From assembly GCA_021815405.1 (NCBI GenBank), contig JAKAGV010000007.1:62001-126000 (forward strand): 64,000 nucleotides of DNA, written 5' to 3'. This stretch comes from Bacteroidota bacterium (GTDB lineage: Bacteria > Bacteroidota > Ignavibacteria > Ignavibacteriales > Ignavibacteriaceae). Below are positions 3,063 through 7,723 of this stretch, piece after piece (position 1 is the first letter of the stretch; each line of letters opens with the position of its first letter). The position numbers were made by a program, and so were the translations under genes. The notes below the pieces were generated by a model. The model saw only the letters and a list, made by a program, of their open reading frames with translations. It searched no databases and had not been told where the DNA came from.

Positions 3063-5420
3063 TTGGTTTCAACGGATGTTTTCATATTGACAGGAGAATG
3101 GCATGACTTCAGAGATAAAAATATTCTGCGGCTGATTGGGATAACGGAAGAACATGGAGCAGCAGAAATAATTATCAGTCATGTAAAGCCTGTTTTCTTC
3201 GTCGAGCATAATGCCAATATTGAAGGATTGACAATCAAATATACCAGGAAGCAATCTGCGATGAAAACATTTTCCGGAGAAAACGTTGATGTACTTTACT
3301 TCAATACTCAAAAAGAATTAAGAGATGCGTCGGACTATCTGCAAGGTAAAGGAATAACAACTTATGAATCTGATGTTGATCCGGTAAGAAGATATTTGAT
3401 GGAGAGATTCATCAATGTACAAGTTAATGTAACGGGAGATTTTACCAAGAAAGAAAAGCTGACAAGCTTTACAAATCCAAAAATAAAACCGTGCGAAGTT
3501 ACACCGCATTTTGTAACAGCATCAATCGATATCGAAACCGGCGTTAATAATAATGCGCTTTATTCTATTGCAATTCACGTAACCGGAAAAAACGGCGAGA
3601 TGAAAAAAGTTTTTATGCTTGGAAGTGTCGGCAAAAAAAGTCCCGATTATATTTCTTTCCATAATTCTGAAAAAGACTTATTAGCAGCGTTCATATCCTG
3701 GTTTAAGGAGATTGATCCGGATATTATCATTGGCTGGCATGTAATAGGTTTCGATTTGATGTTCCTGGAGAGAAAATGCAATGAGTTAAATGTTCCATTT
3801 AATATCGGACGCGGCGAGGGTAAGACTTCTTTAAAAGCAAGAAAGAACGGAGGATATTTTGCATTTGTTCCGGGAAGAATTGTAATCGATGGTCCGCCTT
3901 CATTAAGATCTTCATTCTTCACATTTGAAGATTATAAGCTTGAAACCGTTGCGCAAGAACTTTTGAAAACCGGCAAGACAATAACACCGGATAAAAACAA
4001 AGTTCATGAAATAGAAAGATTATTTAGAGAAGACAAAATTAGATTGGCAGAATATAATTTGCAGGATGCGGTTTTGGTGAGTGATATTTTTAAGAAGTCT
4101 GCTTTAATAGAATTATCCGTCCGTCGTGCCCAGCTTTCGGGTTTGTTGATGGATCAGCTTGGAATGATGACAGCCGCATTCGATCATTTTTATTTGCCGA
4201 GACTGCATCGTGCCGGATTTGTTGCCCCGAATGTAAAAGATATAACCGAGCTTGACCATGCAGCAGGCGGCTACGTAATTGATCCGACACCGGGGTTATA
4301 CAATGATGTAATTGTACTGGATTTTAAAAGCTTGTATCCTTCAATAATCCGTACTTTTAAAATTGATCCGATATCGAGACTTTTATCTGATGAAAATACA
4401 ATTCAAACACCCGAAGGATATAAATTCTCATCTACAAAAAATTTTCTCCCTGAATTCATTGCAAAATTAATGGAACAGCGAAGCGATGCTAAAAAAAATG
4501 GAGACAAGCAGCTTTCGCAGGCAATTAAAATTCTTATGAACAGCTTTTACGGTGTCATGGGCTCATACGGCTGCAGATTCTACCATCCGGATTTACCCAC
4601 GGCAATAACGGGCACTGGTCATTATCTTTTACTTGGCAGCAGAGATTTTCTGCAAGGGAAAAAATATCAGGTTGTTTATGGAGATACAGATTCGCTTTTT
4701 GTTAAGTTGAGAGAAGGCGAAGGTTTAAGTGGAAGTAAAGAAGAAAGCAAGAGTAAGTTTTCTGAGAAAGCAAAACTTGTGGAAGAATTGGGTGAAAGCA
4801 TTGCGAATGAATTAAACAATTATTGGAGGGAAAAATTAAAAAAAGATTTTGGAGTTAATTCGTTTCTGGAAATAGAATATGAAAAATATTATACTAAGTT
4901 TATAATAACTCCTGCAAGAGGAAGCGAAACCGGAGCTAAAAAAAGGTACGCAGGAATGCTTGTGAAAAACGGCGAAGAAAAATTGGAACTTGTGGGAATG
5001 GAGTTCGTTAGATCGGATTGGACCCGTCTGGCTAAGGATTTTCAAGTTGAGCTATACGGGAGAATTTTTAAAAAACTGGAAATTGAAGACTGGATAAGAA
5101 GTGTAGTTTCGAAAGTCTTGAAAGGAGAGCTTGATGATAAGCTTGTTTATAGAAAAAGATTAAGGAAAGACATAGAGAATTATACAAAAAATATTCCTCC
5201 GCAGGTTCGCGCGGCAAGATTGATAGACAGCAGCAGAGGCTTGATATATTATGTTATAACCAAGCGCGGACCTATCCCGATCGAACTTGACCACAGCGAT
5301 ATAGATTATCAGCATTATATAGATAAACAGCTTAAGCCGGTTGCTGATTCGGTGTTGAGTATTTTCGGTACCTCATTTGATGCCATTGTAAATTCTACAC
5401 AACTAAGTTTTTTTGATTAA
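3063..5420 (+). CDS. polB: Family B DNA polymerase (Pol II type)
   Basis: At 785 residues the length matches E. coli DNA polymerase II (783). The exonuclease motifs appear in order: DIET (near residue 155), GWHVIGFDL and a YNLQD Exo III-like motif. These are followed by polymerase motif A (DFKSLYPSI), motif B (KILMNSFYG) and motif C (YGDTDS, near residue 538). Both activities should therefore be intact, giving a proofreading repair or translesion polymerase. The predicted start is TTG at 3063, because no ATG or GTG lies close upstream in frame. The gene appears monocistronic, downstream of a dispersed repeat. In E. coli polB is SOS-induced; I did not identify a LexA-like operator here. Confidence 0.93.
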   Translation: MVSTDVFILTGEWHDFRDKNILRLIGITEEHGAAEIIISHVKPVFFVEHNANIEGLTIKYTRKQSAMKTFSGENVDVLYFNTQKELRDASDYLQGKGITTYESDVDPVRRYLMERFINVQVNVTGDFTKKEKLTSFTNPKIKPCEVTPHFVTASIDIETGVNNNALYSIAIHVTGKNGEMKKVFMLGSVGKKSPDYISFHNSEKDLLAAFISWFKEIDPDIIIGWHVIGFDLMFLERKCNELNVPFNIGRGEGKTSLKARKNGGYFAFVPGRIVIDGPPSLRSSFFTFEDYKLETVAQELLKTGKTITPDKNKVHEIERLFREDKIRLAEYNLQDAVLVSDIFKKSALIELSVRRAQLSGLLMDQLGMMTAAFDHFYLPRLHRAGFVAPNVKDITELDHAAGGYVIDPTPGLYNDVIVLDFKSLYPSIIRTFKIDPISRLLSDENTIQTPEGYKFSSTKNFLPEFIAKLMEQRSDAKKNGDKQLSQAIKILMNSFYGVMGSYGCRFYHPDLPTAITGTGHYLLLGSRDFLQGKKYQVVYGDTDSLFVKLREGEGLSGSKEESKSKFSEKAKLVEELGESIANELNNYWREKLKKDFGVNSFLEIEYEKYYTKFIITPARGSETGAKKRYAGMLVKNGEEKLELVGMEFVRSDWTRLAKDFQVELYGRIFKKLEIEDWIRSVVSKVLKGELDDKLVYRKRLRKDIENYTKNIPPQVRAARLIDSSRGLIYYVITKRGPIPIELDHSDIDYQHYIDKQLKPVADSVLSIFGTSFDAIVNSTQLSFFD

Positions 5421-5604: not shown

Positions 5605-6684
5605 ATGCAGGACGAAGTAAGAATAGTTATTGCCGAAGACGAAAGTATAATTGCAATTGATATTTCCAAAACACTTGAACATTTAGGATATAAAGTTTTA
5701 GGAACTTCTAGAACGGGTCTGGATACAATCAAACTTGCAAGAACATTTAAGCCCGACCTGGTGTTGATGGATATTGTACTTGAGGATAAGATGTCCGGGA
5801 TTGAAGCAGCAGAAATTATAATGAATGAGCTGAACATTCCTGTTGTATATCTAACTGCGATGGCTGACGACGAGACTATTCAAAGCGCAAAAATTACGGA
5901 GCCATTCGGTTATGTTCTAAAACCATTTGATGAGCGGACGCTTCATTCAGCAATTGAGATGGCGCTTTATAAGTACAAAATAAATCAGCAGCTTAAAGAA
6001 AGAACGAAAGAGCTTGAAGAAGAAAAGGTAAGAGCAAACAGACTGCTTCATAATATTTTTCCTAATGAAGTAGTCCGCGAGCTGCAGGAAACCGGCACTA
6101 TAAAACCAAAAGAATTTTCAATGGTAACACTTCTCTTTACCGACTTCCAGGGATTTACAGAAATATCTTCCGATATGCATCCTCAAGAACTGGTTACAGA
6201 GTTGAATGATGTTTTTAAAAATTTCGATTCTATCATCGCGAAACACCAGCTTGAAAAACTTAAAACGATGGGTGATTCATACATGGTAGCCGGGGGGCTT
6301 CCTAAAGAAACTAACGACCATGCATTCAAAGTAATAAATGCTGCGATTGAAATGCAGGAATACTTAAAGATTAGAAATTGCGAATCAAAATATAAATGGG
6401 AGATGAGAGCCGGCATTCATTCCGGCAGCGTTGTTGCCGGAGTGGTAGGCAAAAATAAATTTACTTATGATGTTTGGGGCAACACTGTAAACATTGCAAG
6501 CGCAATGGAGAGACACGGTTTGCCGGGAAGAATTAATATTACATCAACTACATATGATTTAATAAAGGAGTGCTTCGATTGCAGTTATTTCGGAAGCATT
6601 GACTTAACCGGCAACGGCAAGATTGAAATGTATTTGATCGAAAAAAGGAGATATGAAGAAAAAAACAAGAATACTTGTCGTTGA
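5605..6684 (+). CDS. Receiver domain-adenylate/guanylate cyclase fusion, copy A
   Basis: Residues 5-125 form a receiver domain with E11/D12, phosphoacceptor D56, T84 and K106. A coiled linker follows, then a class III nucleotide cyclase domain from about 170 to 345. The metal-binding aspartates are D180 (LLFTDFQGF) and D224 (KTMGDSYM). K220 and D289 are the pair that selects ATP, so the class would be adenylate cyclase. N296 of the transition-state pair is present, but the arginine expected four residues on is A300 (NIASAM). Activity may therefore be low or need a partner. There is a GGGAGAAG ribosome-binding site before ATG 5605, and the 3' end overlaps the next cyclase gene by 32 bases. The receiver suggests control by a histidine kinase. 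Confidence 0.9.
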   Translation: MQDEVRIVIAEDESIIAIDISKTLEHLGYKVLGTSRTGLDTIKLARTFKPDLVLMDIVLEDKMSGIEAAEIIMNELNIPVVYLTAMADDETIQSAKITEPFGYVLKPFDERTLHSAIEMALYKYKINQQLKERTKELEEEKVRANRLLHNIFPNEVVRELQETGTIKPKEFSMVTLLFTDFQGFTEISSDMHPQELVTELNDVFKNFDSIIAKHQLEKLKTMGDSYMVAGGLPKETNDHAFKVINAAIEMQEYLKIRNCESKYKWEMRAGIHSGSVVAGVVGKNKFTYDVWGNTVNIASAMERHGLPGRINITSTTYDLIKECFDCSYFGSIDLTGNGKIEMYLIEKRRYEEKNKNTCR

Positions 6685-7723
6685 AGACGAGTATATTATC
6701 GCTATTGACCTGAAGAAAATCCTCGAAAAGCTCGGGTACGAAGTAACTTCGTTTGTTGGCAAAGGCGAAGAAGCTATTAAAAGAGCTGAAGAAGAAAAGC
6801 CTGATCTTATATTAATGGATATTATGTTAAGCGGACAGCTAAACGGCATCCAGGCAGCGGAATTAATTAAGAATAAATTTGAAATCCCCGTGGTTTTTCT
6901 TACTGCTTTGGTTGACGAAGAGACACTTCAGAAAGCTAAAATTACTGAGCCTGGCGGTTACCTTTTAAAACCATTTGAAGAGAAGGGACTTCATAGCGCA
7001 ATTGAGCTGGCGCTTTATAAATTCAAAATAGAAAAACAACTTAAAGAAAAAACCAGAGAACTTGAGCTTGAGAAAATTAATAATGACAAGCTTCTTCATC
7101 ATATACTTCCTGCCGATGTAATTTATGAAATGAAAATGAGCGGAACAGTTAATCCGAAGCATTACGAATCTATTTCAATTTTATTTACGGACTTCGAAGG
7201 GTTCAGGCAAATAACCAGTCAGCTTCCTCCGGGCGAACTAGTTGAAGAGCTTAATGAAATTTTCAGCCGGTTTGATTCAATAATAGAAAAGTACAGGCTT
7301 GAGAAGCTGAAATCCATAGGCGATACTTACATGATCTGCGGAGGCTTGTTCGAAGAACAAAATAACCATGCCGTAAGAGTTATTTCTGCTGCTAAAGAAA
7401 TGATGGAATATATTTCTGAAAAGAATAAAACATCAAACGTAAAATGGAAATTAAAAGCCGGAATTAATTCTGGTCCTGTGGTTGCGGGCGTTGTCGGTAC
7501 AAACAATTTTACTTACGATATCTGGGGAGACGCAGTTAATATTGCCAGCCGAATGGAGAACAGTTCTAAAGGCGGAGAGATAAATATTTCAGGCAGCACA
7601 TACGAACTCATTAAAGATTATTTTAATTGTGAATACCGTGGCAAAATGACTGTAAAGGGAAAGGGAGAGACCGATATGTATTTTGTGAAGGAAGCGAAAT
7701 TAAAAGAGAGTATTGTAGTTTAA
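6653..7723 (+). CDS. Receiver domain-adenylate cyclase fusion, copy B
   Basis: This is a tandem paralogue of the preceding gene, aligning without gaps over most of its 356 residues. The receiver has E11/D12, D56, T84 and K106. The cyclase domain has metal ligands D180 and D224, ATP-selecting K220 and D289, and the full transition-state pair N296 and R300 (NIASRM). It should make cAMP. The start ATG at 6653 lies inside the upstream coding region and follows an AAAAAAGGAG ribosome-binding site, so the two genes are probably translationally coupled. Class III cyclases are dimers with shared active sites, so copies A and B could form a heterodimer; this is inference. No cAMP-binding regulator is seen nearby. 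Confidence 0.92.
   Translation: MKKKTRILVVEDEYIIAIDLKKILEKLGYEVTSFVGKGEEAIKRAEEEKPDLILMDIMLSGQLNGIQAAELIKNKFEIPVVFLTALVDEETLQKAKITEPGGYLLKPFEEKGLHSAIELALYKFKIEKQLKEKTRELELEKINNDKLLHHILPADVIYEMKMSGTVNPKHYESISILFTDFEGFRQITSQLPPGELVEELNEIFSRFDSIIEKYRLEKLKSIGDTYMICGGLFEEQNNHAVRVISAAKEMMEYISEKNKTSNVKWKLKAGINSGPVVAGVVGTNNFTYDIWGDAVNIASRMENSSKGGEINISGSTYELIKDYFNCEYRGKMTVKGKGETDMYFVKEAKLKESIVV

Follow-up and report, generated by a model that had tools for sequence, protein, structure and literature searches.

The window, a stretch of 64,000 nucleotides from a 4.97 Mb genome of the Ignavibacteriaceae, encodes two tandem receiver-cyclase paralogs, which we refer to as copy A and copy B. Judging from their sequences and those of their relatives, A and B are probably the two subunits of a heterodimeric class III adenylyl cyclase that is controlled through its receivers and has a single canonical active site. 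Across the family, the catalytic residues lost from one copy have tended to be the opposite half of those lost from the other, so the two probably act together as a mixed pair. Here, we describe the gene pair and the distribution of its catalytic residues, and then weigh the heterodimer against other readings.

Pfam models for Response_reg and Guanylate_cyc match copy A (E 9e-19 and 3e-55, respectively) and copy B (E 1e-22 and 1e-54), and the cyclase homology domain (PF00211) is present in both at E about 1e-55. The proteins share 53% identity with no internal gaps over their shared length. An earlier note on this DNA had described two receiver-cyclase paralogs encoded by genes overlapping by 32 bases, with a gap-free alignment, D180, D224, K220, and D289 in both copies, and N296/A300 in A versus N296/R300 in B; our analysis confirms this description (Table 1). 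It had also taken the overlap as favoring co-assembly, which did not hold up: the overlap is found only in the window genome, while elsewhere A and B are separated by about 12-180 bases (by predicted starts), and the conserved feature is the tandem A-B order, which is retained in 10/10 pairs.

Table 1. Coordinates of the A/B gene pair and its active-site residues in the window
Feature	Positions	Strand	Remarks
Copy A: receiver, signalling helix, and class III cyclase domain, 359 aa; putative C1-like subunit	5605..6684	+	
Copy B: receiver, signalling helix, and class III cyclase domain, 356 aa; putative C2-like subunit	6653..7723	+	
A/B gene overlap, 32 nt; AAGGAG-like ribosome-binding sequence just 5' of the B ATG	6653..6684	+	Without conservation in relatives
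A D180, metal aspartate	6142..6144	+	Retained in all A copies
A D224, metal aspartate	6274..6276	+	Retained in all A copies
A N296	6490..6492	+	Invariant
A Ala300 at the transition-state Arg position (tmAC R1029)	6502..6504	+	
A Arg303, one helical turn on	6511..6513	+	Arg/Lys in all R300-less A copies
A Thr335 at the triphosphate Lys position (tmAC K1065)	6607..6609	+	
B D180, metal aspartate	7190..7192	+	Replaced by Asn in the B copies of G024 and G025
B D224, metal aspartate	7322..7324	+	Replaced by Asn in G024 B and by Ala in G072 B
B Lys268 replacing the metal-side triphosphate Arg	7454..7456	+	
B Arg300, transition-state Arg	7550..7552	+	Retained in all B copies
B Lys335, triphosphate Lys	7655..7657	+	Retained in all B copies

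In class III cyclases, the metal side of the active site consists of two Asp and one Arg from one subunit, and the opposite side of Asn, Arg, and Lys from the other subunit (PMC2576301, PMC3591389). Both window copies have the two metal-binding aspartates and N296, and both carry the ATP-selecting Lys/Asp pair (K220 and D289) expected of an adenylyl cyclase. They differ at residue 300, which is Ala in A and Arg in B; the earlier note had left unmentioned that A also has T335 in place of K335, as well as an Arg at 303. Window B holds the full homodimer set (Asn, Arg, Lys, and metal Asp in one chain), and R268K is the sole alteration of its metal side. Lys in place of this triphosphate-positioning Arg also occurs in B of one relative (G023); all other members of the order-level set have Arg. 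In copy A, Asn296 is present, and Arg300 and Lys335 are missing. The AF2 model of A (mean pLDDT 86.8) aligns with cyclase structures in the PDB at Z scores as high as 28.9, including 27.9 against 5o5k and 26.2 against 7yz9. The window genome encodes a third cyclase domain (L003; G000:C12:176073-176615) within a 1434-residue frame. Its active site is degenerate, with Gln/Gly at the metal positions, Glu in place of Asn296, and Ala300, so by its sequence this domain is probably not a cyclase.

Receiver-cyclases of the A/B type were recovered at full length from 19 genomes of the window's Ignavibacteria family and as a fragment from one more; the scan of genome contigs was dominated by receiver domains and recovered few cyclase relatives. 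Ten genomes from three genera (G000, which contains the window, plus G012, G017, G018, G021, G022, G023, G024, G025, and G072) have tandem A-B pairs. In the cyclase-domain tree, the B proteins group together (97/86), as do nearly all A proteins (81/90), with the placement of copy A of G072 not firm. Based on this grouping, A and B derive from one duplication that predates the genera involved. Their neighbors in the tree are single-copy proteins of ~1000 residues from the same order, with propeller, Y_Y_Y, and cyclase domains, nearly all of which retain N296, R300, and K335.

The two copies have diverged from this complete set in complementary ways. Sixteen copy-A proteins, drawn from four genera of a single Ignavibacteria family, have no R300; the residue at this position is instead A, K, I, L, T, or F. 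As to the conservation of A300, which the earlier note had proposed to check, R300 is absent from all paired A copies, and the replacing residue is not a conserved Ala. K335 is gone from 15 of the 16, with Lys only in G018. D180, D224, R268, K220, and N296 are invariant among the same 16 proteins, and position 289 is Asp, or Glu once. Copy B, for its part, has R300 and K335 in 11/11 proteins and substitutions at the metal positions: Asn180 in G025, Asn180 plus Asn224 in G024, and Ala224 in G072, the last seen in one assembly only. The sharing of Asn180 by two assemblies argues against sequencing error. When mapped on the tree, loss of metal Asp falls in two independent lineages of B and in none of A. 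The partners thus show complementary loss of the C1/C2 type, with A lacking R300 and K335 and B lacking metal Asp in two lineages.

These losses leave one combination intact. A composite site with metal residues from A and Arg/Lys from B is complete in 10/10 pairs; the mirror site (B metals with A) and the A-A site are complete in 0/10, and the B-B site is incomplete in three. The A-B heterodimer with one good site proposed in the earlier note is thus upheld as regards the composite site, and its physical pairing is what we infer from it. The best evidence for the heterodimer comes from G024 and G025, each of which has A and B as its only two class III cyclase proteins. In these genomes, the only complete canonical site is therefore the one that combines the A metals with the B Arg/Lys. 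The metal-less B genes of both genomes are under purifying selection (pN/pS 0.13, by a simple pN/pS measure), so B is maintained without a metal site of its own.

In the proposed heterodimer, A would give the metal side (D180, D224, and R268), like C1 of mammalian cyclases, while B would give the K220/D289 adenine pair, N296, the transition-state R300, and the triphosphate K335, like C2. A and B would pair physically, convert ATP to cAMP, and be activated by receiver phosphorylation. The mirror site, formed by the B metals and helix 4 of A without R300 and K335, would probably be weak, regulatory, or dead. Two features of the sequences speak against this arrangement. Window B has every canonical residue apart from the R268K change, so a B homodimer could work. 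In addition, a pure C1-like subunit would have no need of K220, D289, and N296, yet all three are retained in A, apart from one Glu at 289.

A third point against the heterodimer is that R300-less A also occurs without B, in five genomes (G013, G014, G015, G019, and G020); a B-type profile search of these A-only genomes did not find a second close copy. In four of the five, the gene downstream of the lone A corresponds to the one found after B in the window; the G014 contig stops after A but is nearly identical to the G020 sequence. G013, G014, G015, and G020 have no class III cyclase other than A, which in these genomes has Leu300 and Ile/Val335 and pN/pS of 0.07-0.19. Given such retention and strong conservation, R300-less A is probably not dead and must do something alone. 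Since A persists without B in these five genomes, we do not claim an obligate pair for the whole clade, and the earlier expectation that an A homodimer should be impaired is unsupported as stated, as Arg/Lys303 may compensate. Arg300 itself is present in only two A-type proteins, one each in G078 and G079, both with K335 absent. An A ortholog with Arg300 had been named beforehand as evidence that would count against the pair; as both genomes are without B, the pair model is not refuted by them.

In a rival reading, for which the lone A copies speak, both copies would be mainly homodimers with different receivers and inputs, and Arg/Lys303 would replace the missing Arg in A. We consider this unlikely, since the metal-less B proteins of G024, G025, and G072 cannot be ordinary homodimeric cyclases and A is also without K335. 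Residue 303 speaks in its favor. Arg/Lys303 is found in 16/16 R300-less A copies and in the R300-less propeller cyclases of G058 and G059, whereas relatives of the same order that do carry R300 show Ser, Asn, Thr, or residues like them at this position. Among 182 domains surveyed from class, phylum, and more distant genomes, Arg/Lys303 is present in 18 and absent in 5 of those without R300, and present in 1 and absent in 158 of those with R300. Taken by lineage, this amounts to 18/18 R300-less relatives of A against 1/159 R300-bearing domains; the Fisher p of 2e-19 for the association ignores relatedness, and we claim no proof value for it. All six Arg codons, as well as AAA, occur at position 303 among the A copies, which indicates that the residue has been retained through many silent changes. 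In the predicted structure of A, helix 4 spans residues 293-303, with a pLDDT of 92-94 in the blocks concerned, and the i, i+4, i+7 spacing of 296, 300, and 303 places them on one face.

Independent origins of the 300/303 swap were considered and are unsupported: parsimony gives two changes each for sites 300 and 303, and AU tests reject neither a single R300-less clade (p 0.41) nor a clade including G058/G059 (p 0.28). Because the swap may represent only one or two events, a displaced arginine is suggestive and not shown, and this also weakens the argument for homodimers. Altogether, it is reasonable to hypothesize from the sequence pattern that Arg303 acts as a displaced arginine in catalysis or phosphate binding. 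More tentatively, and in our view somewhat improbably, the A lineage may have moved its catalytic Arg from 300 to 303, with A acting as a C1-like half with B and also working alone when B is lost. If true, homodimeric and pseudo-heterodimeric cyclases would coexist in the family as the two states of a reversible step. Two other groups of R300-less cyclases were seen. The propeller-type proteins of G058 and G059 (L207 and L208), which have Arg303, are without a close partner copy in the genome. Receiver-containing cyclases of the alphaproteobacterial SAR116 group (L071, L072, L074, and L076) are without the transition-state Arg, having Asn300 and Asp303 with Lys335 retained, and no second cyclase was found within the few kilobases covered around them.

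Copy A could also be a non-catalytic pseudo-enzyme that tunes a B-B or A-B cyclase, in keeping with its lack of R300 and K335 and with the nearly full set of residues in window B. This seems quite improbable to us, because the metal Asp, Lys220, and Asn296 are never lost in A, whereas B loses metal Asp, and because A is maintained in genomes that have no other class III cyclase. That A is a decaying duplicate without special function is barely credible: residue 300 does vary freely among A copies, but low pN/pS, the invariance of the other active-site residues, occurrence in four genera, and survival after loss of B all speak against it. The same conservation and pN/pS led us to reject decay as the reason why R300 was lost.

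For the heterodimer, control through the receivers is consistent with their sequences, as both copies retain D12, D56, T84, and K106, which comprise the phosphoacceptor Asp and the conserved Asp/Thr/Lys of receivers of the CheY-AC type. In eight relatives, a protein of ~785 residues is encoded upstream of and divergent from A, with one intervening gene in G078; the two such proteins examined combine HisKA and HATPase domains with three receivers. Loci of the hybrid kinase include L174:6704-9061 and L190:12149-14512 and their orthologs. Based on gene neighborhood only, this hybrid histidine kinase with three receivers is likely the cognate kinase of A/B. The window genome has a 72% identical ortholog on another contig (G000:C19:34800-37148). 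In place of the kinase, the gene directly upstream of A in the window encodes a family B DNA polymerase (3063-5420, 785 aa, probable TTG start). The polymerase gene is also upstream of A in G017, G018, G021, and G023; this position is occupied otherwise in the A-only relatives and in the other genera that were examined.

The closest parallel to the proposed A-B heterodimer is the C1/C2 arrangement of mammalian transmembrane adenylyl cyclases, in which one domain retains the metal Asp and has lost Arg and Lys, and the other retains Arg and Lys while its metal Asp can be lost, leaving one complete site. A and B differ in being two soluble bacterial receiver proteins encoded by separate tandem genes; in addition, A retains N296 and the adenine pair and has Arg303, and the metal Asp of B is present in most genomes. 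Soluble guanylate cyclase likewise has separate subunits, with metal Asp in alpha, Asn/Arg/Lys in beta, and a mirror site without key residues (PMC3591389), but it is eukaryotic, guanylate-specific, and has a heme sensor instead of receivers. The two-gene class III heterodimers of NeoR/RGC rhodopsin cyclases differ in that RGC1 and RGC2 retain all cyclization residues (PMC8815786), which in A/B are divided. Specialized class III heterodimers have been described chiefly from higher eukaryotes (PMC8815786). Bacterial class III cyclases are reported to homodimerize with monomers contributing equally, and fused dimers are not known in bacteria (PMC9552081). The model of A has the fold of homodimeric bacterial enzymes such as Rv1625c/Cya (matches to 5o5k and 7yz9), in which both monomers contribute equally to two sites (PMC9552081), whereas A and B do not. 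The CheY-AC response regulators (named in PMC1183210) also join a receiver to a class III cyclase, whereas A/B are two divergent tandem paralogs with complementary losses. The A/B pair, which divides its catalytic residues as C1/C2 do, is best read as a heterodimer with one canonical site; the literature covered by a limited open-access search describes bacterial class III cyclases as homodimers. If A and B do divide the site in this way, they would illustrate independently how cyclases of the mammalian type arise, with the intermediate stages (a nearly intact B, a B lacking metal residues, and a lone A) present in a single family, and the possible displaced arginine would test the rigidity of class III catalytic geometry.
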